This document shows, one piece after another, positions 5,594 through 33,019 of a stretch of 34,388 nt of DNA. The position numbers and the translations under genes were made by a program. Location of the stretch: positions 1-34,388 of the forward strand of contig CAJOPN010000031.1 of NCBI GenBank assembly GCA_905236285.1, in the 5' to 3' direction. The notes under the pieces are model-generated. The model was not told the DNA's origin, did no database searches, and worked only from the letters and a program-made list of their open reading frames with translations. Each line of letters begins with the position of its first letter. The stretch's first letter is position 1. The stretch is from an uncultured Selenomonadaceae bacterium. Its GTDB lineage: Bacteria > Bacillota > Negativicutes > Selenomonadales > Selenomonadaceae.

Positions 5594-5995
5594 TTAATGT
5601 ACTCTTGCCTCATCAATTTTTTCTTCTTCTTCAGGAAAACTTACGCCTTGAACGTGAACATTTACTTCAACGACAGAAAGTCCCGTCATATTTTCGATTG
5701 CATGTTTGATATTTTCCTGTGCCGCAAGTGCAACATCGGGAATACGAACGCCATATTTAACGATGATATAAAGATCAATTGCCGCCTCTTTCTCTCCGAC
5801 TTCTACTTTTACGCCTTTGCTGAAATTTTTGCGTCCGAGCATTTCAGCAATTCCGCCGACAAGTCCGCCGCTCATTCCTGCAATTCCGTCAATTTCTGTC
5901 GCCGCAAGTCCTGCAATTATGCTCACAACTTCGTCTGCAATGCGAATCGTTCCGAGTGCCGAATCACTTTTGATTGTATCTTTCTCCATATCCAT
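5594..5995 (-). CDS. Asp23/Gls24 family envelope stress protein
   Basis: GTIRIADEVVSIIAGLAATEIDGIAGMSGG...VEVNVHVQGVSF. Start at ATG 5995 (MDMEKDTIKS) with AGGAGG SD, rather than ORF-track 6094. Confidence 0.92.
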   Translation of the reverse strand: MDMEKDTIKSDSALGTIRIADEVVSIIAGLAATEIDGIAGMSGGLVGGIAEMLGRKNFSKGVKVEVGEKEAAIDLYIIVKYGVRIPDVALAAQENIKHAIENMTGLSVVEVNVHVQGVSFPEEEEKIDEARVH

Positions 5996-6100
5996 TTTTA
6001 AAAATCCTCCTCTGCAATTATATTTTGCTTTAAAAATTTTATTCGCTCTTTTAAAAAATTTTCCTGCAAAATTCTGTAATTTTTTTGTACTCAAAAATAT

Positions 6101-6129
6101 TTGACAGACTCAATTTGAAAATATAAAAT
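6101..6129 (+). promoter_or_regulatory. Sigma-A-like promoter for the pilin operon
   Basis: TTGACA (6101-6106), 17-nt spacer, TAAAAT (6124-6129). Confidence 0.6.
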
Positions 6130-6185
6130 CTTTTTGAGAAGAAAAAATTCAACGTTGAAAATATTTTTTGAGGTGTGAAAATTTT

Positions 6186-6635
6186 TTGAGACGAAATTTT
6201 TTTAAAGAGAAATTTTTTAATGAAAAAGGTTTTATATTAATCGAAACTGTTTTTACGGCAATGATTTTATCTTTCACGGCTTTTATCGTCGTCAACGGTT
6301 TGGAAGTCGCAATTAGAAGTGAACGCATTTCTGTCGTCAAAACAAATGCCGTTCATCTCGCAAATGCCAGAATTGCCGAAATCGAATCTTTTAACGAAAA
6401 TTTAAATTCATTTCAATTTCCTTCAACTTCTTTGACAAATGAAGATTTAATTTACAAAAATTTCTTCGGCATTAACGGCACGATTCAATTTCAAATCGAC
6501 GAAAAAATAAACTCTTCCTCAACAAATTTTGTCAACGTCACAATCAGAGTGAGTTGGGTTGTCAACGGCAATGAAAATTACAGCGACGGAAACAATTATG
6601 AAGAAGTTACAAAAAATATTTATTTTGCTCAATGA
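6186..6635 (+). CDS. Type IV pilin-like prepilin (PilV/GspI-like)
   Basis: NEKG|FILIETVFTAMILSFTAFIVVNGLEVAIRSE prepilin cleavage site and hydrophobic helix. TTG start at 6186 with GAGGTG upstream. Confidence 0.75.
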   Translation: MRRNFFKEKFFNEKGFILIETVFTAMILSFTAFIVVNGLEVAIRSERISVVKTNAVHLANARIAEIESFNENLNSFQFPSTSLTNEDLIYKNFFGINGTIQFQIDEKINSSSTNFVNVTIRVSWVVNGNENYSDGNNYEEVTKNIYFAQ

Positions 6636-7113
6636 ACGCGGCTTTTTGCTCCTTGAATGGATTATTGCTCTGCCTTTGATTGTTATGCTGCTCTGGTCTT
6701 TCAACAATCTTTTCATAAATTCATATGACAAATGCAAATTTTTAATCGCAGATTTTATTCTTCAGCAAGAAATGGAATCGGCTTTGTCAAGAATTGTCGA
6801 GATTGCAAGAATTTCTTATGAATTTGAAGATAAAAACGATGTTTACACTTTTAAATACAAATCAATGAAAAACATTTCACCTGAGAACGGTCAATATAAA
6901 TATTTTAAAGATGAAGGAAAAATTTATCGCGGAGTAAGTTCGGGAAATTCAAATCCAATAACCGGCGACAGTTGGCAGTCAAATACGATAGTCACGAAAT
7001 TTAAATGTCAACAAAACGGAAAATTACTTCATATCAGATTGGAGGCGAAAAGCACGTTAAGCAATCACGAAATTTTTTTGACGACTGAAGTTTACATGCG
7101 CGGACTGCAATGA
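6598..7113 (+). CDS. Type IV pilin-like prepilin (PilW/ComGF-like)
   Basis: NERG|FLLLEWIIALPLIVMLLWSFNNLFINS; overlaps upstream gene. ATG 6598 (MKKLQKIF). Confidence 0.72.
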   Translation: MKKLQKIFILLNERGFLLLEWIIALPLIVMLLWSFNNLFINSYDKCKFLIADFILQQEMESALSRIVEIARISYEFEDKNDVYTFKYKSMKNISPENGQYKYFKDEGKIYRGVSSGNSNPITGDSWQSNTIVTKFKCQQNGKLLHIRLEAKSTLSNHEIFLTTEVYMRGLQ

Positions 7114-7556
7114 ATCAACACGGAATAATATCATTGAGTGCACTTTGTATGATGTTCGTACTTGCGATGGCGATTGCGACGGTTTCAAATTTTGCGGCTC
7201 GTCAGGCTGATATAGTTAAATTTTTCAAAATTGAGAACGAATTGCAATTTGCGGCTGAAGATTGTTTCAATGAAGTAATAAATAATCTTTCAAGCAATCA
7301 AAATCATTACGGCGAATTGGCGGACAATACTCCGAAAATATTTGAACTCAACAGAAATTTGAATGGCAGAAATATGAAATTGACAATTTGCCTGAGAAAA
7401 TTCGTTGCCGATAAAAAAATTGTTGTGATGATTTTAATTGACGTGCCGAATTACAATCACGGAACACATTCATTTTATAAAAAGATTTACGGCTACATGA
7501 GCGCAGTTGAGGATTCGGAAGATGAAAAATATAAATTTAAAGGATATTTTTACTGA
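7110..7556 (+). CDS. Pilus-associated protein, PilX-like (single N-terminal TM)
   Basis: NQHGIISLSALCMMFVLAMAIATVSNFAARQADIVKFFKIENELQFAAEDCFNEV; position in pilin operon. Confidence 0.55.
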   Translation: MNQHGIISLSALCMMFVLAMAIATVSNFAARQADIVKFFKIENELQFAAEDCFNEVINNLSSNQNHYGELADNTPKIFELNRNLNGRNMKLTICLRKFVADKKIVVMILIDVPNYNHGTHSFYKKIYGYMSAVEDSEDEKYKFKGYFY

Positions 7557-8658
7557 AAAGATAAAAAAGAAATTTGAAAAGGCGATAGGTGCTTACGTCG
7601 ATGAAGAAAATAATTTATTCTGCGTATATTTGAAACTTGAAGGCGAAATTTGGAAAGTAATTGATACGATTGAAGATAAAATTTACTCCGATGAAAAAAA
7701 TTTTTCCGAAAAAATTGCAGAAAAAATTTCTGAGCAGATTAAAATAAAAAATTGGCGGACAAATTCAATCGCCTTTTGCTTGAGTAATGATAAGGTCGTA
7801 ATTTATATTGATGATTTTTCAGTCGTGCCGAAAGACAAACTTCAAAATGCAGTTCATTATCAAATGGCAGTCGCAGGTAATTTTGAACCGGATGAATATT
7901 TTTCATCGTATGTCGAGATTGATTCAAACATTTGGATGGAGGCAATTTCAAAAAAAGATGTTTTCAAATGGACGGAATCTTTTTCAAAAAATAATTTGGA
8001 TTTGCTGACTTTGACGGCGGTTCCCGATGAAATTGAAAGCGTCGAAGAAATTAATTTGGAAAATGTCGGCGGATTGTTTTTAATGCGCGGCGGAATAAAG
8101 GCGATAATTGCGGCAAAAAGTTTAATCTTTAAAAAAAAACCGAATTTTATATTGGAACGAACCGACAATCTCAACGGCTTAAATATTTTAAAAATCAATA
8201 CGGCAATATTTTTAATAACGATATTTGCATTAATCGGATTCGGAATATATGATTTTTGGAATTACAAACAAGCGGAAGAAATTTTGCAAAATGAACGCGA
8301 TGAACTTGAATTATTGGAAAAGGACAGACGAAAAGAAGAATTTATAAACAAAATTCAGAACGAATTGAAAAATAAAAATCAAATTTTGACAAGTCTAAGC
8401 GAAGAATCATTTCCATTCAGAAGTTTATTGATACATTTCGGCACGATAAAAATAAAAGGTGTATGGCTGAGAGAAATCCGGACGCTTGAAGATGAAACGA
8501 TTGAAATAAAAGGTGAGGCGGTGAATTATGAGGCAGTCGGAAATTATGTCAAAGCATTGGAGAACGACAGAGAGATTTTCAGCAAAGTTGAAATGAAAAG
8601 TTCAGAGATGAAAACGGAAAATCAGTTGGTGAGATTTACAATAATTTTGACGATATGA
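7522..8658 (+). CDS. PilM/GspL-like plus PilN-like fusion protein
   Basis: N-terminal cytoplasmic region (IGAYVDEENNLFCVYLKLEG..., AVPDEIES), one TM (INTAIFLITIFALIGFGIYDFW), coiled coil, then PilN-like C-terminus (GVWLREIRTLEDETIEIKGEAVNYEAVGNYVKALE). Confidence 0.65.
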   Translation: MKNINLKDIFTEKIKKKFEKAIGAYVDEENNLFCVYLKLEGEIWKVIDTIEDKIYSDEKNFSEKIAEKISEQIKIKNWRTNSIAFCLSNDKVVIYIDDFSVVPKDKLQNAVHYQMAVAGNFEPDEYFSSYVEIDSNIWMEAISKKDVFKWTESFSKNNLDLLTLTAVPDEIESVEEINLENVGGLFLMRGGIKAIIAAKSLIFKKKPNFILERTDNLNGLNILKINTAIFLITIFALIGFGIYDFWNYKQAEEILQNERDELELLEKDRRKEEFINKIQNELKNKNQILTSLSEESFPFRSLLIHFGTIKIKGVWLREIRTLEDETIEIKGEAVNYEAVGNYVKALENDREIFSKVEMKSSEMKTENQLVRFTIILTI

Positions 8659-20470: not shown

Positions 20471-23400
20471 TTAACTCTCTTGAGTCTCTTGCGTCGATTG
20501 AGTCGGCTGCGTTTGTCTTATTATATGTTCGTAACATTGTTCCAATACTCTTGTGTAATGTTTCGGCTGTACAGCATTGGTTCGTTGCAGTCTCATTCTT
20601 AAATCTCTGTGCAATAAATTTAAAACTTCTTTGTCATTCGCCAAACCTACTGCTCTTGCAACATATTCATCGCCGGTTCTTACTGCAAAATCTTTCAAGC
20701 CCAAACTTTGCAAAATTGTCATAGCAAATCTTGTGTCGCGTCTTTCGTTGTAAATGCTTATCACAGGTACACCCATGAATAATGAATCCAAAGTTCTTAC
20801 AGCGTCCGACATAGGAAATGTATCGAGTGAAATATCAATTTGCAAATAATTTGTAATGTAATCCATCAACAACGGCTGAAAAGTTACGTTATCCATATTG
20901 AAACCGATTTTTTTCAATCTTTGATATGCTTGATCGACGAGAGAATCGCTCACAAATTCTTCGGCTCTCAAAATGAGTTTGGAGTTAGGCACGCGATTTA
21001 AAATTGTTTTCCAGACATTGAGCATATCATCGCCGATTTTATTGTAAGAATGAAATGCTCCGAATGTTACATATCCGTTTTGAATTGAAGGAGGCGGAGC
21101 AGGCTGAGGTGCCTCGCTGTTGCTTGCATAACAAAATTGACATGGCATATAAATAAATGTTTCTTTAAAATATTTGTCACGTTCATCAGGCGGATCGGTT
21201 TGTTTGTCTGTTATGAAGTAGCTGATGGAATTTAATCCCGTCGTTGCAGGTGAACCGATTCCCGATACTTGCAGCGGTGCAGGATGATATGCAAATACCG
21301 GCAAGCCTGTCTCTGTTCTGTGTCCCGATAAATCTACCAATATATCAATTTCATCTTCGTGAATTTTTTGTGCAAGTTCTTTGACCGACAAATCTGAAAC
21401 TCTTTCAAAATGTTCTACTGCCGGTTCCATTGCCTGAGTAAACGGATCATCAAATTTATTTAGTGAATACGCCGTGACTTCAAAATAATCTCTGTCGTGA
21501 CAGGCAAGTATTCCGTAAATCAATGAAAAATCATCGCCTTGCTTAAAATAAGGTGAAACATATCCGACTTTGATTCTGCGTTCGTTGAGGACAATTTTTT
21601 TGAATCCGTTAAATTTGTTGTAAGGCTGAATTTTTGCGAAGAGATTTTGATATTCAAAATTATTGTTCACGAGGTCTTCAGTAGAAATTGCAAGATGTTG
21701 AAGTGCATAAAGCGTTTTACTGAAAATAAATGCGCGTTCCTCATTGTCTTTTGCAAGCGGCAATGCTTTATTGTAAACATCAACCGAAATTTTGCAGTCG
21801 CCGTTAATCAACGCAAGTTCGCCGTATATCATATAATATTTTTTCGCCAACTCACGGTCTTTTTCAATTTGTGAAATATATTTTTCGACACTTTTAATTG
21901 TCTCGTAAGCCGTCGCATAATCAAAAAGATTTTGTTCAGCCTTCGCTCTCGTAATTAAAATTTCTGCAATTTTATCTGTTTCAATTCTGCTTGCCTTGTC
22001 GAGCCAATACTTTACACGCTTAATATTCGTCGCATTTTGAATTACATTGTTCCAAAAATTTTTTTCATAATCAATATATTCAAGCGATTGCCGGTATAAT
22101 TTTTCAACGTCTTCTTTCGTCAATTCAGGTTCATCTTGAGGAAAATCAGGCAATTCTTCACCGTTTACCCACGCATTCCAAATTTTTTCGTAAGCCTCTT
22201 CAATTTCACCCATGTAAGTTATGTCATTCATTATCGGTGATTGTCTCATTCTGCGGCGCAATGTCAAATGATATTCTCTTATTTTATCCCAATCATTTGC
22301 AAGCTCGATTGCTTTTTGAATGTATTCTTCTTCAGTAAATGTGCAAAGTTCATCAAGTCCCATATTATGAAGAAGTGAATATCCAAATCTGCCGTTATGT
22401 CTCTCGCCTACCAATGTTATTACAGGTACTCCCATATAAAGAGCGTCGCAAGTCGTACCGCCTCCCGGATATGGAAATGTATCAAGTGCTATGTCCGTCA
22501 AATTATATTTTTTCAAATATTCTTGTTCATCAGGCTCAATTATTACTCTGTCCAAATCAATACCTGCTTTTGTCATTCTTTCCTTCGCGTCATTGATTCC
22601 ATATTCCGATCTGAATGCTTTTCCCTTTAAAAATAATTTGGAATTTTCAACGGCTTTTAAAATTTTTCCCCACGCACTTAACGTTTCATCGGTTACCTTT
22701 GCAAAATTATTGAAACTGACGAAAGTTATATAACCGTTTTTCGTGCAAGGAGCAGGAGAAATTTCCATCGGTGCATCATGCCACATGTAACAAAAATGAC
22801 TGTGTTGAAGCCGCAAAATCTTTTCGCTGAAAAATTTGTCATTAAGTCCGACAGGATCTGTAAATTTATCGCAAAGAAAATAATCAATCGTTTTTAAGCC
22901 CGTAGAATTGAACCAGCCGATTGCAGAAATACAGACTGGCGCAGGTTTATAGCTCATTACCTGCAAAACATTGTTCGCCGTGTGTCCCGATAAATCTATC
23001 AATATATCAATTTCATCTTCACGAATTTTTTTTGCGGCTTGATAAGGCGTGTGAAATAAAATATTTGTCCAGCCATCTACTCCCGCTTTAAATTCTTCCG
23101 CCGCGTGATCTTCCATATTTTTCGGATAGCAATACACTTCAAATTTATTTTTGTCGTAACATTTATAAAATGCGTAAGAGAAAAATGCAACGACGTGACG
23201 GCGAATATCAGGCGAAATATAACCAATACGAATTTTATCATGTTTCGGATGCGTCGCAGGATCAAATTTAAAAATTTTTCTGCCTTCAAAAATATTATTG
23301 TAATCGCAGATCGCCTTGAATAAATCTTCGCGACTGATATTTATATTGTGCAGCGAAAATAAATAATTGCTGTAATCGTCGCATTTAATATTAAATAAAT

Positions 23401-23902
23401 ATTTGTAAGTGTCGGGATCATTTACATATGGAGTTATATCATTTACCGAACTTTTATAATAATGCTCGATACTTTTCGGAGCATCACCGACATATCTGTA
23501 AGCATGTCCCAAAATATTATGAATCATCATCGTTGTCAAAAGTGATGAACCCGGTACTGTCAAAGCCTCTTCGCCGTATTTTATACAGCCTTCATAATCG
23601 TGTCGCAAATCATATACTCGCGATTTTAAAAATACTCTGTAACCACTCGGCGGAAAATGTTTTTCCATGTATTGAGAACCTTTTTCTGCTCTGTCCACCT
23701 CATTCAAATCAACAAAAATTGAAGTCACTTTCTCCATTGGAAACGGATCGTTGGGTTTCATTGCCATTATTTGATCCGCAAGTTCAATTGTTCTTTGGCG
23801 ATCATGTTTATTCATATGAACGTCAAGCAATTCGGCTAAAAGTGCCTCCAAATTTTTTTTCTTCTTCGCTTCAGTTTTCTGTGTCGTTTTAATTTTTCGC
23901 AT
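20471..23902 (-). CDS. Large protein with TPR-like regions and two GT41 (O-GlcNAc transferase/SPINDLY-like) modules
   Basis: Module 1: IRIGYISPDIRRHVVAFFSY...IDILIDLSGHTANN...NGYITFVSFNNFAKVTDETLSAW...LDTFPYPGGGTTCDALYMGVPVITLVGERHNGRFGYSLL. Module 2: IKVGYVSPYFKQGDDFSLIY...IDILVDLSGHRTETG...NGYVTFGAFHSYNKIGDDMLNVW...LDTFPMSDAVRTLDSLFMGVPVISI. Confidence 0.9.
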   Translation of the reverse strand: MRKIKTTQKTEAKKKKNLEALLAELLDVHMNKHDRQRTIELADQIMAMKPNDPFPMEKVTSIFVDLNEVDRAEKGSQYMEKHFPPSGYRVFLKSRVYDLRHDYEGCIKYGEEALTVPGSSLLTTMMIHNILGHAYRYVGDAPKSIEHYYKSSVNDITPYVNDPDTYKYLFNIKCDDYSNYLFSLHNINISREDLFKAICDYNNIFEGRKIFKFDPATHPKHDKIRIGYISPDIRRHVVAFFSYAFYKCYDKNKFEVYCYPKNMEDHAAEEFKAGVDGWTNILFHTPYQAAKKIREDEIDILIDLSGHTANNVLQVMSYKPAPVCISAIGWFNSTGLKTIDYFLCDKFTDPVGLNDKFFSEKILRLQHSHFCYMWHDAPMEISPAPCTKNGYITFVSFNNFAKVTDETLSAWGKILKAVENSKLFLKGKAFRSEYGINDAKERMTKAGIDLDRVIIEPDEQEYLKKYNLTDIALDTFPYPGGGTTCDALYMGVPVITLVGERHNGRFGYSLLHNMGLDELCTFTEEEYIQKAIELANDWDKIREYHLTLRRRMRQSPIMNDITYMGEIEEAYEKIWNAWVNGEELPDFPQDEPELTKEDVEKLYRQSLEYIDYEKNFWNNVIQNATNIKRVKYWLDKASRIETDKIAEILITRAKAEQNLFDYATAYETIKSVEKYISQIEKDRELAKKYYMIYGELALINGDCKISVDVYNKALPLAKDNEERAFIFSKTLYALQHLAISTEDLVNNNFEYQNLFAKIQPYNKFNGFKKIVLNERRIKVGYVSPYFKQGDDFSLIYGILACHDRDYFEVTAYSLNKFDDPFTQAMEPAVEHFERVSDLSVKELAQKIHEDEIDILVDLSGHRTETGLPVFAYHPAPLQVSGIGSPATTGLNSISYFITDKQTDPPDERDKYFKETFIYMPCQFCYASNSEAPQPAPPPSIQNGYVTFGAFHSYNKIGDDMLNVWKTILNRVPNSKLILRAEEFVSDSLVDQAYQRLKKIGFNMDNVTFQPLLMDYITNYLQIDISLDTFPMSDAVRTLDSLFMGVPVISIYNERRDTRFAMTILQSLGLKDFAVRTGDEYVARAVGLANDKEVLNLLHRDLRMRLQRTNAVQPKHYTRVLEQCYEHIIRQTQPTQSTQETQES

Positions 23903-24956
23903 TAACTTTTCTCCTCCACAATTCTAATCTTTTCCTTGCTCCTTCTGCCATTTTCGGCGTTAAAAGCATTGGCTCCAAACCTTTATATGTTTCGTATTTT
24001 TTTAATGCTTTCTCCATTAACGGAATTGCATCAACAAAATTTCCTTTCGATGCCAAACATTCCGCATATTCTGCACAGAACTCAGGTATTTCTGGAAATT
24101 GATTCATTGCAATTTGTACATATTTAATTCTGTCGTCAATTCTTTCAGGAAATTTCGCCAGCAAATTTAAAAGTATTCTGTGCGATGAACTTGCAAATGT
24201 TGTGTCGCGTCGTCCGCCTTCAATGTCAAGGATTGCATATTTTTCGGCGTTCGGATAATCTTTCAAGCCGTTGTAACATTGCGCGATATATCCATAAACA
24301 TTTTCGGGATGATTTGTTACTTCCAATTCGGCAAGCAATAATTTTAAATTTCTCCTCGCCTTATCCATATTTATTTTTGCAGAATATCCCGTGTGATACA
24401 ATTCCAAAAGATTTGTCGGTATCATCGTTACTTTGCCGATTGTATTTCCGTCGGATTTTCTCAATTCTTCGTGAATCCTTCCGTGATAACGACAACCTTT
24501 CATATTTTTGTACATTCGCAAAATATATGTCGTGTCCATAACCTTATTGTCTCTGTCGACATCAATATTAACAAGATTGACTAAAAGTCCTTCTTTATCA
24601 TGCTTGTCTGCCTGCTCGATTATCGCACGTATATTTTTGCCTGAATCATTCGGAAAATATTCATCGGCATCCAAAAAAATTATCCAATCTCCTGTTGCAT
24701 TATCCAACGCCAAATTTCTCGGTGTTGAAAAATCATTGTTCCATTCGCATTCAAAAATTTTTGCGCCGTAACTTTTTGCAATTTCAATCGTGTTGTCCGT
24801 TGAGCCCGTATCGACTATTACTATTTCATCGACCTGCTTTTGAAGACTCTCTATTGAAATCGGCAAATTTCGCGACTCGTTTTTTACGATATAGCAAACA
24901 CTTATTTTTAATGTTTTATTTTTTGCTATTTTTTTCGACGGTTTTAATTTCCTCAA
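23889..24956 (-). CDS. GT2 glycosyltransferase with C-terminal TPR-like region (paralog 1)
   Basis: KISVCYIVKNESRNLPISIESLQKQVDEIVIVDTGSTDNT; PRNLALDNATGDWIIFLDADEYF; TTG start. Confidence 0.9.
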   Translation of the reverse strand: MRKLKPSKKIAKNKTLKISVCYIVKNESRNLPISIESLQKQVDEIVIVDTGSTDNTIEIAKSYGAKIFECEWNNDFSTPRNLALDNATGDWIIFLDADEYFPNDSGKNIRAIIEQADKHDKEGLLVNLVNIDVDRDNKVMDTTYILRMYKNMKGCRYHGRIHEELRKSDGNTIGKVTMIPTNLLELYHTGYSAKINMDKARRNLKLLLAELEVTNHPENVYGYIAQCYNGLKDYPNAEKYAILDIEGGRRDTTFASSSHRILLNLLAKFPERIDDRIKYVQIAMNQFPEIPEFCAEYAECLASKGNFVDAIPLMEKALKKYETYKGLEPMLLTPKMAEGARKRLELWRRKVNAKN

Positions 24957-24963
24957 AATTTCT

Positions 24964-25872
24964 TCACCTCTTCAAATTTTTATTTATATAATCCGTCAGC
25001 AATTTATGCTGTAAGAGTAATTCTTGATCTTTCGGAAAATGTTTCAATGCTTCATTCAAAATTTTCATTATTTCATCAAGCGGACGATTTAATTTTCTCA
25101 TTGCGTACAAAGTTTTCTTATAAAAAATTGCAAGTCCCGTTATCGGTCTTTCATTCGTAGACAATAATTTTTCGGCATGATACAAAACTTTTTCATAATC
25201 TTCAAGTGCAAAGTAACAATCAACCAATGCAATATTATGACGCGTTTGAAGACCTATTTTTTCTGTTTCGGACTTTATTATTGCAAGATTTCTTTTTAAT
25301 TTGCTTTCGGCTTTCGTCGTGCTGTAACCTGTATGATACAATGTCAAATCTTTGTCGGCAATTTTATATTTCAATTCGCCGCCGTTTATATTTTCAACAT
25401 TCTCGTGAATTAAGCCTCTGTATCTCAAATAATCGACGTTACGAATTGCTCGCAGATAATAATCTTGATTTAAAATTTTATTTTCATCATCTTCATCAAT
25501 GTCAATTCGCAGCATGAAAATTGCATCTGTAGACTTTGAAAAATTTTCTATTGCCGCACGAATTTTTTTCGGATAAATAAAAAATTCATCGGCATCAATC
25601 ATTATTATAAAATCTCCTGTTGCATTGTCCAACGCCAAATTTCTCGGTGTCGAAAAATCATCATTCCAATCAGTTGAAATTATTTTTGCTCCGTATGATT
25701 CGGCAATCTCAACCGTTTTATCACTTGATCCCGTATCGACAATAATAATCTCATCAACCGAATTTTTCAAGCTCTCTATTGACCGCGAAATATTTTTTTC
25801 CTCATTTTTGACTATATAGCAAGCCGATATTTTTATTTTCTTTGAACCGGATTTATTTTTAATTTTTCGCAT
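24964..25872 (-). CDS. GT2 glycosyltransferase with C-terminal TPR-like region (paralog 2)
   Basis: KISACYIVKNEEKNISRSIESLKNSVDEIIIVDTGSSDKT; PRNLALDNATGDFIIMIDADEFF; ATG 25872 overlaps end of paralog 3. Confidence 0.9.
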   Translation of the reverse strand: MRKIKNKSGSKKIKISACYIVKNEEKNISRSIESLKNSVDEIIIVDTGSSDKTVEIAESYGAKIISTDWNDDFSTPRNLALDNATGDFIIMIDADEFFIYPKKIRAAIENFSKSTDAIFMLRIDIDEDDENKILNQDYYLRAIRNVDYLRYRGLIHENVENINGGELKYKIADKDLTLYHTGYSTTKAESKLKRNLAIIKSETEKIGLQTRHNIALVDCYFALEDYEKVLYHAEKLLSTNERPITGLAIFYKKTLYAMRKLNRPLDEIMKILNEALKHFPKDQELLLQHKLLTDYINKNLKR

Positions 25873-27241
25873 TTGATTCACCTTTCAACTGCAAAAGTTT
25901 TAAATAAATTCTGTCTGCAATTCTCGTGAAATAACAATTATCATGCGTTTCATCGGTTATTTCGTTCCACACGTCTATTGACTTTTGAAGATCGCGTATT
26001 CCTTCATCAATTCGATTGTTCGACGCGAATATCATTCCGCGTTCAGCATAAAATTCGGGACATTTCGGCAAAAATTTAATCGCCTCGTTTACGATTTTCA
26101 AAATTTCTTCGACAGGTTTTTCAAGAAGATACATTGCTTTTATCATGTCGCGATAAACTCTGTCGGTACGATAATTATTTTTGATTGCCGCTTTTGCATA
26201 TTTCAACGCATTTTTTGAATCATTCATATCGGAGTAACAACTTGCAAGCTGAGCGATTAAAACCGGTTTTGCTCCGACTTTTTCAATTTCAATTTGAATC
26301 TTTGCAATATCTCTTCTGCAATATGATTCATTCGCCTCTTTTAATTTTTTCAATCTCTCAAACAAAATTCCCTGCTGATCGTAGAAAAATGGAATTTCAG
26401 GAAATTTCTTAATTGTGTCGTCGAGAAATTTTAAACAATCTTCAGTCGGATATTTTAATTCGTACATTGCTTTCAAAATATGTATGAAAGGTGCTTCGGG
26501 ATTTGTAATAATTGATTTATAATTTTCGGCAGCACGTTTTGAATAATAAAGAGCCTTTTCATAATCACCGAGTCCGATATAACAATTTGCATAAGACATA
26601 TCCTGCTGAATACGATAACCGAGTTTTTTTTCTTCAAGCTCAAGAATTTTTAAATTGCGAAGGTATTTATCACGATGAATATTTGCAGAGTAACCTGTAT
26701 GATAAATTAAAAATGCATCTCCACCAAAAATATATTTCAAATTGCCGCTTTCAATGTCTTCAATATTTTCGTGAATCATTCCGCGATAACGAATATATTT
26801 TACGTTGCGGAAAATTCTTAAATTGTTGTCTTGATTGATAACTTTAAAATTATTGTCACTATCAACATTTAAACGCGGAATTACAATCGCATCGGTTTCC
26901 TTGTCAAAAAATTCAATCGCTGAACGAACTTTTTCGGGATATGCAAAATTTTCATCTGCGTCCAAAAAAATTATCCAATCTCCGCTTGCGTTGTCGATTG
27001 CGAGATTGCGAGGTGCAGAAAAATCATCCTGCCAAGTCGTACGAATAATTTTTGCTCCGTAATTTTCGGCGACCTCGATTGTCTTATCCGTAGAGCCAGT
27101 ATCAACGACGATAATTTCATCAACAAAATCTTTCAATGAGCGGATTGATTGCGATAAGTTTTTTTCTTCATTTTTTGTGATGTAACATGCCGATATTTTC
27201 AATTTTGATTTTAATTTTTTCGTCGATTTTATTTTTCTCAT
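25859..27241 (-). CDS. GT2 glycosyltransferase with extended TPR region (paralog 3)
   Basis: KISACYITKNEEKNLSQSIRSLKDFVDEIIVVDTGSTDKT; PRNLAIDNASGDWIIFLDADENF; 460 aa with several TPR-like units. Confidence 0.9.
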   Translation of the reverse strand: MRKIKSTKKLKSKLKISACYITKNEEKNLSQSIRSLKDFVDEIIVVDTGSTDKTIEVAENYGAKIIRTTWQDDFSAPRNLAIDNASGDWIIFLDADENFAYPEKVRSAIEFFDKETDAIVIPRLNVDSDNNFKVINQDNNLRIFRNVKYIRYRGMIHENIEDIESGNLKYIFGGDAFLIYHTGYSANIHRDKYLRNLKILELEEKKLGYRIQQDMSYANCYIGLGDYEKALYYSKRAAENYKSIITNPEAPFIHILKAMYELKYPTEDCLKFLDDTIKKFPEIPFFYDQQGILFERLKKLKEANESYCRRDIAKIQIEIEKVGAKPVLIAQLASCYSDMNDSKNALKYAKAAIKNNYRTDRVYRDMIKAMYLLEKPVEEILKIVNEAIKFLPKCPEFYAERGMIFASNNRIDEGIRDLQKSIDVWNEITDETHDNCYFTRIADRIYLKLLQLKGESNAKN

Positions 27242-28372
27242 TTATTTCACCTTGTTGTAATTTGCTTGCTGATAAAGATAGCGTTGATTGTGAGGAGAAA
27301 TTTTCAAAGCCTCAGAGATATTTCTTTTCGCCTCTTTTAAATTTCCTTTCAAAAATTCCAATTCTGCCGACTGTGCAAAAACTACGTCCATAATTCGCGG
27401 ATAATAAGAATTTTCGTAAGTTTCGGCAGGCAAATTTTTCCATATTGACAGCGATTTTTTAAAATATTCAAGAGCTTCTTCAAGTCGATTCAAATCACAA
27501 AGTGTAATTGCACGTTCGGCATAAAATTCAGGCAGTTGAGGAAGAATTTTAATTGCATCGTCAATTACTTTCAAAACTTCTTCATCGGATTGATTTAAAT
27601 TTCTCATGGCATTCATCAAATTTCGATACAATCTGCCGCGACCTGTCAATTCAATCGTCGAAGAATTGAGAGCTTTTTTCACATAAAAAATAACTTTTTC
27701 ATAATCGCCGAGTCCCATATAACAATCAGCCAAAGTAATATCATGCTGCGGACGATGTCCCGAAATTTTTTCTTCACGTTCAATCATTTCAAGATTGCGT
27801 TGAAGTTTTTGTTTAATTTTTGAGGCGGCATAACCTGTGTGAAAAATCGTCAAATCCGAACTGCCGAAAATATAATTCATCTCGCCGCCTTTTATATTCG
27901 TCAAATGTTCGTGAATCAAACCTCTGTATCTCAAATAATCGACATTTTTAAAAATTCTCATGCTCCAATCGTGATTGAGTTCGCGATTTTGTTCTTCGTC
28001 AATATCAATTCGCGGAATTATAATTGTCTCTGCAGATGTTTTTGATATTTCCGATCTTATTTTATTTGGATTTTTAAAAAATTCGTCAGCGTCCAAAAAA
28101 ATTATCCAATCGCCTGTTGCATTTTCGATTGCAAGATTTCGAGGCGTTGAAAAATCATCGTTCCAAGCCATCGTTAAAATTTTTGCGTTAAATGATTTTG
28201 CAATTTCAACAGTTGAATCAGTCGAGCCGGTATCAACGACAATTATTTCATCAACGGCGGATTTTATACTTTCCAATGAGCGCGGCAAATTTTTTTCTTC
28301 ATTTTTAACCATGTAACACGCAGAAATTTTTATTTTTTTTGAACCGGATTTATTTTTTTTAATTTTTCTCAT
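27242..28372 (-). CDS. GT2 glycosyltransferase with C-terminal TPR (paralog 4)
   Basis: KISACYMVKNEEKNLPRSLESIKSAVDEIIVVDTGSTDST; PRNLAIENATGDWIIFLDADEFF. Confidence 0.9.
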   Translation of the reverse strand: MRKIKKNKSGSKKIKISACYMVKNEEKNLPRSLESIKSAVDEIIVVDTGSTDSTVEIAKSFNAKILTMAWNDDFSTPRNLAIENATGDWIIFLDADEFFKNPNKIRSEISKTSAETIIIPRIDIDEEQNRELNHDWSMRIFKNVDYLRYRGLIHEHLTNIKGGEMNYIFGSSDLTIFHTGYAASKIKQKLQRNLEMIEREEKISGHRPQHDITLADCYMGLGDYEKVIFYVKKALNSSTIELTGRGRLYRNLMNAMRNLNQSDEEVLKVIDDAIKILPQLPEFYAERAITLCDLNRLEEALEYFKKSLSIWKNLPAETYENSYYPRIMDVVFAQSAELEFLKGNLKEAKRNISEALKISPHNQRYLYQQANYNKVK

Positions 28373-28373
28373 T

Positions 28374-29513
28374 TCAAATGTTCCTTTTATATTTCGCCGC
28401 CAACTTTTTATAAGTTTGATTGTTCGGCGACAATTTTATTGCCTCTTCCATGTTCCATAGTGCCTGCTTGAAATTTCCGACGTAAGCCTCAATTTCAGCA
28501 AGCCGCATATAAACTTTGTCAACCGCTCCGGCAAAATATGATTCTTCATGTACATCACTTTTCATTTTTCGCCATACTTCAAGCGATTTATGAAAACTCA
28601 AATATGCCTCATCAAGACGATCAAGTCCGCAAAGAATCATACCGCGTTCGGCATAAAACTCAGGCAGATTCGGAAGTTTTTTAATTGCCTCGTTCGCTAC
28701 TTTCAACATTTCTTCGTCGGAATAATTTATTTCTCTCATTGCGTTTAAAATTTTGTGATATAAATTTCCATGTCCTGCGATTGCCTCATAATCTGAATTT
28801 AAAGCCTTTTGAGCATGATAAAGTGATTTTTCAAAATCTTTCAAGCCGGCGTAACAATCTGCAAGTGCCATATCGTGACGCGGTTCATGTCCGAATTTCT
28901 TTGATTCAAGCTCAATCAATTTTAAATTTCTCAGCAATTTTTCTTTAATTACTTTTGTGCCGTAGCCTGTGTGGAAAATTTTTAAATCATCATTGCCGAA
29001 AGTGTAATCCAAATTTTCATGTTTTAAATCGGTGATATTTTCGTGAATCAATCCTTTATATCTCAGATAATCGACATTTTTAAAAATTCTTGCACACCAA
29101 TCACGGCTTATTTCGGAATTGTTGTTTGATTCGTCAATATTTATTCTCGGAATTAAAATTACATCTTTGCCGACCTTTTCGATTGCGGCACGAATTTTTT
29201 TTGAAGTTGCGAAAAATTCATCGGCATCAAGAAAAATAATCCAATCACCGACTGCGGCATCAATCGCCATATTTCGCGGCGTTGAAAAATCATCGTTCCA
29301 AGTCGTATTTAAAATCTTTGCTCCGTAACTTTCGGCAATTTCAACAGTCGAATCCGTCGAGCCGGTATCAATTACAATTATTTCATCTGCAATATTTTTT
29401 ATGCTGTCCAGACTTCGAGATAAATTTTTTTCTTCATTTTTCGTCATACAGCACGCGGAAATTTTCAAATCGCTTTTGGATTTAATTTTTTTTGTCGGTT
29501 TTAACTTTCGCAT
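28374..29513 (-). CDS. GT2 glycosyltransferase with C-terminal TPR (paralog 5)
   Basis: KISACCMTKNEEKNLSRSLDSIKNIADEIIVIDTGSTDST; PRNMAIDAAVGDWIIFLDADEFF. Confidence 0.9.
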   Translation of the reverse strand: MRKLKPTKKIKSKSDLKISACCMTKNEEKNLSRSLDSIKNIADEIIVIDTGSTDSTVEIAESYGAKILNTTWNDDFSTPRNMAIDAAVGDWIIFLDADEFFATSKKIRAAIEKVGKDVILIPRINIDESNNNSEISRDWCARIFKNVDYLRYKGLIHENITDLKHENLDYTFGNDDLKIFHTGYGTKVIKEKLLRNLKLIELESKKFGHEPRHDMALADCYAGLKDFEKSLYHAQKALNSDYEAIAGHGNLYHKILNAMREINYSDEEMLKVANEAIKKLPNLPEFYAERGMILCGLDRLDEAYLSFHKSLEVWRKMKSDVHEESYFAGAVDKVYMRLAEIEAYVGNFKQALWNMEEAIKLSPNNQTYKKLAAKYKRNI

Positions 29514-29529
29514 AAATTTTTACCTTTCA

Positions 29530-29558
29530 TTGACATTAATTTAAAAATTGTGTATAGT
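29530..29558 (+). promoter_or_regulatory. Sigma-A-like promoter for the YgbA_NO-like gene
   Basis: TTGACA (29530-29535), 17-nt spacer, TATAGT (29553-29558). Confidence 0.6.
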
Positions 29559-29597
29559 TTAGAAAAAAATATGAATTATAAATGGAGAGATTTTTTA

Positions 29598-30104
29598 ATG
29601 GGAATTTTAGATAAGATTAAAAGCATACTTCCAAAACGAAAAGAGCCGGAACTGAAAAATAATATTCCGAAAGAAAAGGAGAATATCAGAAAAACATTCG
29701 GCGTTTATTGTCATAAAAATCATGGAACCGAAGGCGACAAACTTTGTCCGAAATGTACCGCGCTTTTGACGACAATTTTTATTAAAATCGGTCGCTGTCC
29801 TTACGGAATCGGCAAGCCTATTTGTGACAAATGTGAAACTCCTTGTTTCGGTGAAGATACCACGAAAGAATTTAGAAATATTATGAGTTCATCTTCAAAA
29901 AAAATGTTGCTGTCCCATCCGATGATGACAATTAAACATAAATTACAAGGATTAGGCGTTGATTATGCAAAGCAGGAACGCGACAAAAAATCCACCGACA
30001 AGCAGAAAGAGGCTGAACAAAAAGTTAAAAACAAACTTACAAATGCAATGAAATCACCGAAATCATCGAAGTCAAAATCAAAATCGAAAAGAAAGAAAAA
30101 ATAA
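29598..30104 (+). CDS. YgbA_NO (nitrous oxide-stimulated promoter) family protein with Lys/Ser-rich tail
   Basis: YCHKNHG...LCPKCTALLTTIFIKIGRCPYGIGKPICDKCETPCF...MLLSHPMMTIKHKL resembles E. coli YgbA Cys pattern. ATG 29598 with GGAGAG SD; ORF-track start 29550 lies upstream of the -10. Confidence 0.78.
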   Translation: MGILDKIKSILPKRKEPELKNNIPKEKENIRKTFGVYCHKNHGTEGDKLCPKCTALLTTIFIKIGRCPYGIGKPICDKCETPCFGEDTTKEFRNIMSSSSKKMLLSHPMMTIKHKLQGLGVDYAKQERDKKSTDKQKEAEQKVKNKLTNAMKSPKSSKSKSKSKRKKK

Positions 30105-30108
30105 TTTT

Positions 30109-30696
30109 TTAAATATCATAAAACACGTCGCTGACTTCTACAAGCAAATCATCGAAAATGGAAACTTTTATTTGTGTTTTAATTTCTTCGCGTTCCTTTT
30201 CAGTCAACAATTCAAGATCAACTTCCTCAAAAATATGATAAATATAATCCAAATTAAATTTTCTGTCAATCAAATGATAAACTTGAATCGATTTGTCAAT
30301 CGGATTGACGATCCAATATTCTTTAACGCCGTTTCTTTCATAGGCATCTTTTTTTTTGCCGAAATCTTTTTTTGCCGTTGATTTTGATAATATTTCAACA
30401 ATTAAATCAGGTACTCCGTAAATAGTGCCCCCGTCTTTCAAAATTTTTCTGTCACAAACAATACTTAAATCCGGCATAAAAAGACTTCCGTCAGGCAAAT
30501 GAACATCAATATTGTCTCCAAAAACTTTTCCGCAATTATTTTTTCGACAATAATTTTTAAAAATTGTAATCAAATTACTGTCAACATCTGCGTGAATCCA
30601 ACCGGGACTTGGTGACATAATATTTTTTACTCCTTCAATAATTTCATAACGTTCCACATAATCAATACTGTAAGCGGCACTTGACATAAAAATCAC
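30109..30696 (-). CDS. Uma2 family (DUF820) PD-(D/E)XK-like protein
   Basis: LFMPDLSIVCD...GVPDLIVEILSKSTAKKDFGKKKDAYERNGVKEYWIVNP. Confidence 0.9.
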   Translation of the reverse strand: MIFMSSAAYSIDYVERYEIIEGVKNIMSPSPGWIHADVDSNLITIFKNYCRKNNCGKVFGDNIDVHLPDGSLFMPDLSIVCDRKILKDGGTIYGVPDLIVEILSKSTAKKDFGKKKDAYERNGVKEYWIVNPIDKSIQVYHLIDRKFNLDYIYHIFEEVDLELLTEKEREEIKTQIKVSIFDDLLVEVSDVFYDI

Positions 30697-32665: not shown

Positions 32666-33019
32666 TGGTGGAGATGAGGAGAGTCGAACTCCTGTCCGAA
32701 AGCATTGTTATAAAGATTTCTCCGAGCGCAGTCGATGATCGAATTTAAGTTCAGAAGAGTTCATTGACAAACTCATCATCGCCGAGCGTCTTTAAAAAAA
32801 TTCCCGAATCGTTACGACGCAATCACAATACAGTATCTCACATCAGCCTCTGACCCGATCTAGTGAGAGATCAATCGGCAGAGGTGGCAATTAAGCTGCC
32901 AAAGCGTAATCTTCGTTTGCTTTTATATTTAAAGCATTTTCACCTTACTGAAGCGGTTCGATGACCCCGCTGCTCGCTTACCTTATCCCATCTGCCCCCG
33001 TCGAAACCTTTACATCCCC
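32666..33019 (-). ncRNA. ssrA: Transfer-messenger RNA (tmRNA)
   Basis: Minus strand 5' GGGGATGTAAAGGTTTCGACGGGGGCAGATGGGATAAGGTAAGCGAGC... and 3' GGACAGGAGTTCGACTCTCCTCATCTCCACCA; acceptor stem GGGGATG/CATCTCC. Tag frame GCA AAC GAA GAT TAC GCT TTG GCA GCT TAA at 32891-32920 = ANEDYALAA. Confidence 0.96.

Follow-up and report, generated by a model that had tools for sequence, protein, structure and literature searches.

Organisation of the glycosyltransferase island

The window analysed here, the whole 34,388-nucleotide contig CAJOPN010000031.1 (C31) of an uncultured Selenomonadaceae bacterium, carries at positions 20471-29513 six minus-strand open reading frames (ORFs) that overlap or nearly do so, encoding five GT2 glycosyltransferases and one protein with two GT41 domains, all with tetratricopeptide repeat (TPR) parts. 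The contig belongs to a 2.07-Mb metagenome-assembled genome (MAG), 81% complete, whose relatives are rumen Selenomonadaceae MAGs. We believe, with a probability of roughly 85%, that the island serves to O-glycosylate flagellin in the cytosol.

The first gene of the operon, GT2_1 (28374..29513), encodes a 379-aa GT2 of the GmaR/SunS class with C-terminal TPRs, as read from Pfam and the ORF translations. It is separated by a single nucleotide (28372/28374) from GT2_2 (27242..28372; 376 aa, GT2 and TPR by Pfam), which has counterparts in the same slot of the related loci L042, L043, L044 and L045 and abuts GT2_3 (27241/27242). The latter (25859..27241) encodes 460 aa with an extended TPR region according to Pfam and occupies an orthologous slot in L042, L043, L045 and L048. 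GT2_4 (24964..25881; 305 aa from a GTG start) has a short TPR tail and orthologous slots in L042-L045 and L048. It overlaps GT2_3 by 23 nt if this GTG at 25881 is used, and by 14 nt if translation begins at the ATG of an MRKIK leader at 25872, which is the likelier start. A 7-nt gap (24956 to 24964) leads to GT2_5 (23889..24956; 355 aa, TTG start; Pfam and tree), which in turn overlaps by 14 nt (23889-23902) the gene of a 1143-aa TPR-GT41-TPR-GT41 protein (20471..23902; Pfam, structural model and residue comparison). The first-pass annotation of this DNA, which described six minus-strand genes with junctions from a 14-nt overlap to a 7-nt gap, is thus upheld, given the ATG start of GT2_4.

The GT2-TPR enzymes resemble transferases that act on proteins

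Alignment of the five GT2s with 19 homologues shows that residues D96, A97, D98 and E99, which include the acidic metal-binding DAD motif of GT-A enzymes, are invariant, and that the (K/R/H)xGxIHE-type and HTGY motifs form invariant columns in all five proteins, which range from 305 to 460 aa. The motifs and lengths noted previously are therefore correct, but they are not peculiar to the island, since IHE and HxGY also occur in the GmaR/SunS class. The C-terminal TPR arm is present in the GT2s and weakest in GT2_4 (Pfam; AlphaFold model of GT2_1). In the GT2_1 model, a GT-A domain is followed by a helical arm, with a predicted local distance difference test score (pLDDT) of 88, and its best Foldseek match, over the whole length, is ThuS/SunS. 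By sequence, the nearest solved relative of GT2_1 is GmaR (profile E 2.7e-57).

In the tree, GT2_5 is the orthologue of the lone GT2 that other members of the genus have beside, or fused with, GT41-GT41. GT2_1 to GT2_4 group together and are specific to the lineage. For each of these four, no fewer than three of L042, L043, L045 and L048 hold an orthologue (L044 has fewer), and in L042, L043 and L045 the GT2_4 orthologue shares one chain with the next GT2. Tree and slots together indicate that the expansion to GT2_1-GT2_4 is old and confined to the lineage, with the slots individually retained, which fits distinct jobs, be it different sugars, positions or sites.

A GT41 protein with one intact and one degenerate domain

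The GT41 match of the large protein (PF13844; 277 bits against a cutoff of 25) is accompanied by TPRs, and its model (pLDDT 87) shows the order TPR-GT41-TPR-GT41 and matches SPINDLY (SPY) and OGT, SPINDLY being the nearest solved relative (E 6.6e-74). Domain 1 spans residues ~196-600 and domain 2 residues ~741-1130. SPY mutants at H495, K665 and Y744 are reportedly inactive or nearly so. The first of these residues, the His of the ISPDxxxH motif, corresponds to OGT H558 (PMC9715652).

Domain 1 retains the equivalents of SPY H495, N662, K665, K689 and Y744 together with the methyl-pocket residues V497/I592, and departs in the alignment at A731 (Lys), T747/T748 (Gly) and E752 (Asp). The H495, K665 and Y744 equivalents are retained in every congener that could be scored, and domain 1 looks catalytically intact. 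In domain 2 of the window, the same three positions are G, K and M; of the 28 unfused congeners, just 5 retain all three residues, as against 17 of 18 fused ones. Domain 2 is nevertheless still full-length, and the ratio of non-synonymous to synonymous substitution rates, where measurable, is about 0.06-0.12, indicative of purifying selection; it is therefore maintained without the usual catalytic residues. Judged by its residues, domain 2 looks no longer catalytic in the window's clade and may, by analogy, be a pseudo-enzyme for binding or positioning flagellin. The label 'dual GT41' given earlier thus holds for the two domains, but probably not for two working enzymes, the active site of domain 2 being degenerate. 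The same genome (G000) encodes two more single-GT41 proteins, on contigs C32 (5301-7151; L014) and C154 (4209-5597; L015), the latter without the residues equivalent to H495 and E752.

As regards the donor, SPY Y744 is said to clash with N-acetylglucosamine (GlcNAc). With K689 and A731 it makes up the signature of SPINDLY-like (GDP-fucose) GT41 enzymes (PMC10027727), of which domain 1 has two of three residues (K689 and Y744, with Lys at A731), a mixture resembling the 'intermediate' group of the same study. By these residues, a deoxyhexose (of the fucose or rhamnose class) or a hexose is a likelier donor for domain 1 than GlcNAc. The island's own genome encodes a dTDP-glucose dehydratase and a GDP-mannose dehydratase, both above cutoff, and on one of its flagellin contigs a GDP-fucose-synthase-like gene adjoins a mannose-1-phosphate guanylyltransferase-like gene. 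The presence of dTDP-rhamnose-type and GDP-fucose donor genes is suggestive of deoxyhexose use by the GT41 protein, and of no more than that.

The module follows flagellin across the Negativicutes

We surveyed 251 Negativicutes genomes with cut-offs of E<=1e-40 for the GT2 type and E<=1e-60 for GT41. Flagellin was found in 122 genomes and the GT2 type in 87, every one of which is flagellin-positive (87/87; Fisher p 4e-39), while 61 of the 62 genomes with GT41 have flagellin (Fisher p 2e-22); the genomes being related, these p-values overstate independence. Within the window's family, 57 flagellated genomes possess both GT2 and GT41, and the five non-flagellated ones, from two genera, possess neither. 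Separate events do, however, underlie the two losses within the family and the scattered occurrence in other families.

Gene order points the same way. The other genera of the family typically show the succession FlgL, FliW, FlaG, FliD, FliS, FliT, flagellin, GT2s and GT41s. The module there adjoins flagellin, which lies within the same 20 kb at 43 of 52 loci (on the same strand at 42) and as a rule about 1 kb away from the first GT2. This pool includes some loci picked partly for flagellin adjacency, supplemented by all other loci of the family whose positions were listed; the misses are mostly loci at contig ends or with other axial genes. Flagellin linkage extends to other families (L147, L153, L182-L186). 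The search of related genomes for linkage of the block to an acceptor gene, which the first-pass annotation had proposed, has thus led to flagellin, and its suggestion of a dedicated protein O-glycosylation system is well supported by the co-occurrence and by this linkage in relatives. At the end of many flagellin-linked clusters stands a TPR protein whose N-terminus is MGK(A/T)SR-K-rich (L192 2265-3143, L176 19059-20000, L187 16720-17643).

One linked locus deserves particular attention. In genome G134, a flagellin gene (437 aa) lies directly upstream of genes with the domain orders GT2-GT2, GT2 and GT41-GT41-GT41. The flagellin has T149, S182, T199, T259 and S334, which match the O-glycosylation sites reported by Rath et al. 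2018 for the Selenomonas sputigena flagellin; G134 is almost certainly S. sputigena ATCC 35185. Rath et al. 2018 reportedly found this flagellin to be an O-glycoprotein with short oligosaccharides. The work is cited for S. sputigena flagellin glycosylation in PMC13339959. In our literature search, which did not cover Rath et al. 2018 itself, no paper was found that assigns enzymes for the Selenomonas flagellin O-glycans.

These patterns also bear on the possibility that the island makes lipopolysaccharide (LPS), capsule or a teichoic-acid-like polysaccharide. Such pathways often involve GT2 domains, and TarS, TarP and RmlT do appear further down in the Foldseek list of GT2_1. However, both the phyletic pattern and the linkage track flagellin, on which grounds a role in LPS or capsule synthesis was rejected; the TPR arms and the kinship with GmaR, SunS and SPINDLY point to protein acceptors, and no wzx/wzy/waa-type genes were seen around the island in the window. 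We regard a polysaccharide product as very improbable. Co-occurrence with LPS or capsule genes only, the outcome that had been named as decisive against protein glycosylation, did not occur.

Flagellins of the host genome

No flagellin gene is present in the window, but as this is one contig of an 81%-complete MAG, the absence says little. Five Flagellin_N matches lie on other contigs of the genome, one of which (C147) is FlgL. The earlier statement that the window holds no acceptor is accordingly accurate; its description of the acceptor as unknown is superseded, flagellin being the most probable one from co-occurrence and linkage.

One of the genome's flagellins, at L018 9804-11468 (contig C138), has a von Willebrand factor A domain as its central variable part (Pfam VWA, Flagellin_N, Flagellin_C). 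RTX-type (hemolysin calcium-binding repeat) proteins, one of them 2007 aa long, are encoded divergently beside flagellin genes or flank them (L019 3145-9168 and 9304-10227; L018 3-2204 and 14334-15182). A flagellin gene at L016 8414-9964 has as its neighbour (5812-8256) the gene of an 814-aa protein without a Pfam match, CDP-glycerol-transferase-like by eye, homologues of which lie in or beside the glycosyltransferase clusters of relatives (L147, L075, L179, L182).

Fusion and separation in the window's genus

Several observations weigh against a role in flagellin glycosylation. Within the window's own genus the module is found without flagellin at 48 of 49 loci, so that the link to flagellin is drawn from relatives. 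In the 36-bp divergent intergenic region (29514..29549) between GT2_1 and the YgbA-family gene, no convincing sigma-28-like promoter was found that would place the island under flagellar control. The sole exception to the co-occurrence is genome G060, in which GT41 is present but flagellin gave no match, and some flagellated Negativicutes are devoid of the module, so flagellin does not need it. The exceptional genome is 99% complete and encodes a GT41-GT41 protein (L172, contig C80).

The single linked congener (G040) has flagellin ~0.45 kb from a fused GT2-GT41-GT41 protein, and, as judged from gene order, the module has left the flagellin locus in this genus. It could therefore be asked whether the module has been re-targeted there to another exported protein, for example the RTX-type giants, with flagellin as a secondary or lost target. 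The separation itself, the decay of GT41 domain 2 together with the gain of four GT2s in the window's lineage, and the giant RTX proteins adjoining flagellin genes in the same genome would all suit such a change. Yet the sampled members of the genus retain flagellin, one of them beside the fused enzyme, and the module is nowhere linked to an RTX gene. We consider re-targeting improbable, and flagellin remains a strongly inferred target.

At 18 loci of congeners, a single polypeptide of about 1340-2140 aa unites two GT41 domains with one to three GT2 domains, and such one-chain fusions bind the two kinds of transferase to a common process. Within the genus's unfused clade, GT2s and GT41 proteins, despite their unrelated folds, have in common an N-terminal leader made up of MRK(I/L)K and a Lys-rich part. 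Fused proteins carry another Lys-rich leader (e.g. MAKRKKKK), and leaders are mostly missing in flagellin-linked relatives. The leader shared by GT2s and GT41 is possibly a common docking tag.

Beside the island lie a YgbA_NO-family gene (29550-30104), a Uma2-family gene (30109-30696) and, further on, a tmRNA gene (32666-33019). The neighbours conserved in the genus (YgbA_NO, Na/Ala symporter, PFK, queuosine genes, an EAL/GGDEF protein and GH32) suggest no common pathway.

A proposed mechanism

Kinship with GmaR/SunS and with SPINDLY places both kinds of transferase in classes that act on proteins in the cytosol, and direct cytosolic transfer is accordingly what the families suggest. The TPR-bearing enzymes would bind unfolded or chaperone-bound flagellin ahead of export and pass sugars straight from nucleotide sugars to Ser/Thr, then onto each other's products, each enzyme being responsible for one sugar step or one site, with no lipid-linked intermediate. 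The GmaR-type GT2_1-5 would most likely add N-acetylhexosamine (HexNAc) or hexose residues and the SPINDLY-type GT41 domain 1 a deoxyhexose or hexose, with domain 2 serving as a flagellin-binding or positioning platform. The identity of the initiating enzyme, the sugars used and the role of domain 2 are the less certain parts of this proposal.

Within it, a division of labour in which GT41 makes the first attachment to Ser/Thr and the GT2s do no more than lengthen the chain, as first suggested for the island, is compatible but rather doubtful. GT41 is indeed a protein-modifying family, the GT2-GT41 fusions imply joint work, and the short oligosaccharides reported for the S. sputigena flagellin would suit this order. 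However, the nearest GT2 relatives, GmaR and SunS, place the first sugar directly on protein, GmaR transferring GlcNAc to flagellin (PMC9638930), so that the island GT2s may initiate too. Furthermore, the flagellated loci L182-L186, outside the family, have a GT2 beside flagellin and no GT41 found in the 20 kb, which argues that a GT2 can work without a nearby GT41.

Tentative, too, is the idea that GmaR-type and SPINDLY-type transferases form one assembly machine, as a single polypeptide or, in other species, as separate leader-tagged subunits, in which one GT41 is a conserved flagellin-holding pseudo-enzyme and each GT2 adds a fixed residue or serves a fixed site.

If the flagellin assignment is right, the island supplies candidate enzymes for the heavy, unusual O-glycans of Selenomonas flagellin. 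The separate genes, the GT2-GT41-GT41 fusions and the decayed GT41 would form a natural series in which to study what sets the order and the choice of site when proteins are glycosylated without a template. Rumen and mouth, the habitats of flagellated Selenomonadaceae, are places in which the sugars on flagellin can influence adhesion and recognition by the immune system.

Comparison with known systems

The kind of system is already known; its enzyme architecture is unusual, the new elements being the fusions, the decayed yet constrained second GT41, the slot-wise GT2 expansion and the departure from the flagellin locus. Among known enzymes, GmaR, the GT2-TPR flagellin O-GlcNAc transferase of Listeria monocytogenes, resembles the island GT2s in its DADE-type, IHE and HxGY motifs, in its C-terminal TPRs and in its acceptor, as implied by the linkage in relatives. 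It is, however, a single enzyme of 637 aa, whereas the island has five shorter paralogues alongside a GT41, and their lengths leave little room for the antirepressor part of GmaR. The S-glycosyltransferases SunS and ThuS share with the island GT2 a full-length structural likeness, a GT2 domain with a helical arm, but the island proteins score 60-89 bits against the curated SunS cutoff of 350 (TIGR04195), far below equivalog level, and no bacteriocin precursor was seen near the island; unlike SunS/ThuS, they probably do not act on a Cys peptide.

The SPINDLY O-fucosyltransferase and OGT combine TPRs with GT41 as the island protein does, but in the latter the unit is duplicated and the second copy degenerate. 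The way of working, though neither the glycosyltransferase family nor the acceptor, recalls GtfA/GtfB of serine-rich-repeat adhesins, in which an active transferase is paired with an inactive homologue that aids acceptor binding, followed by serial cytosolic extension. FlmG, the flagellin glycosyltransferase of Caulobacter, is likewise a soluble TPR-glycosyltransferase protein whose TPR part binds flagellin (PMC7591256); it is a single enzyme with pseudaminic acid, unlike the multi-enzyme island. In S. sputigena, a homologous GT2/GT41 module lies directly downstream of the glycosylated flagellin, with three GT2 and three GT41 domains in a flagellin-linked setting, as compared with the five GT2s and one intact GT41 domain of the unlinked island.

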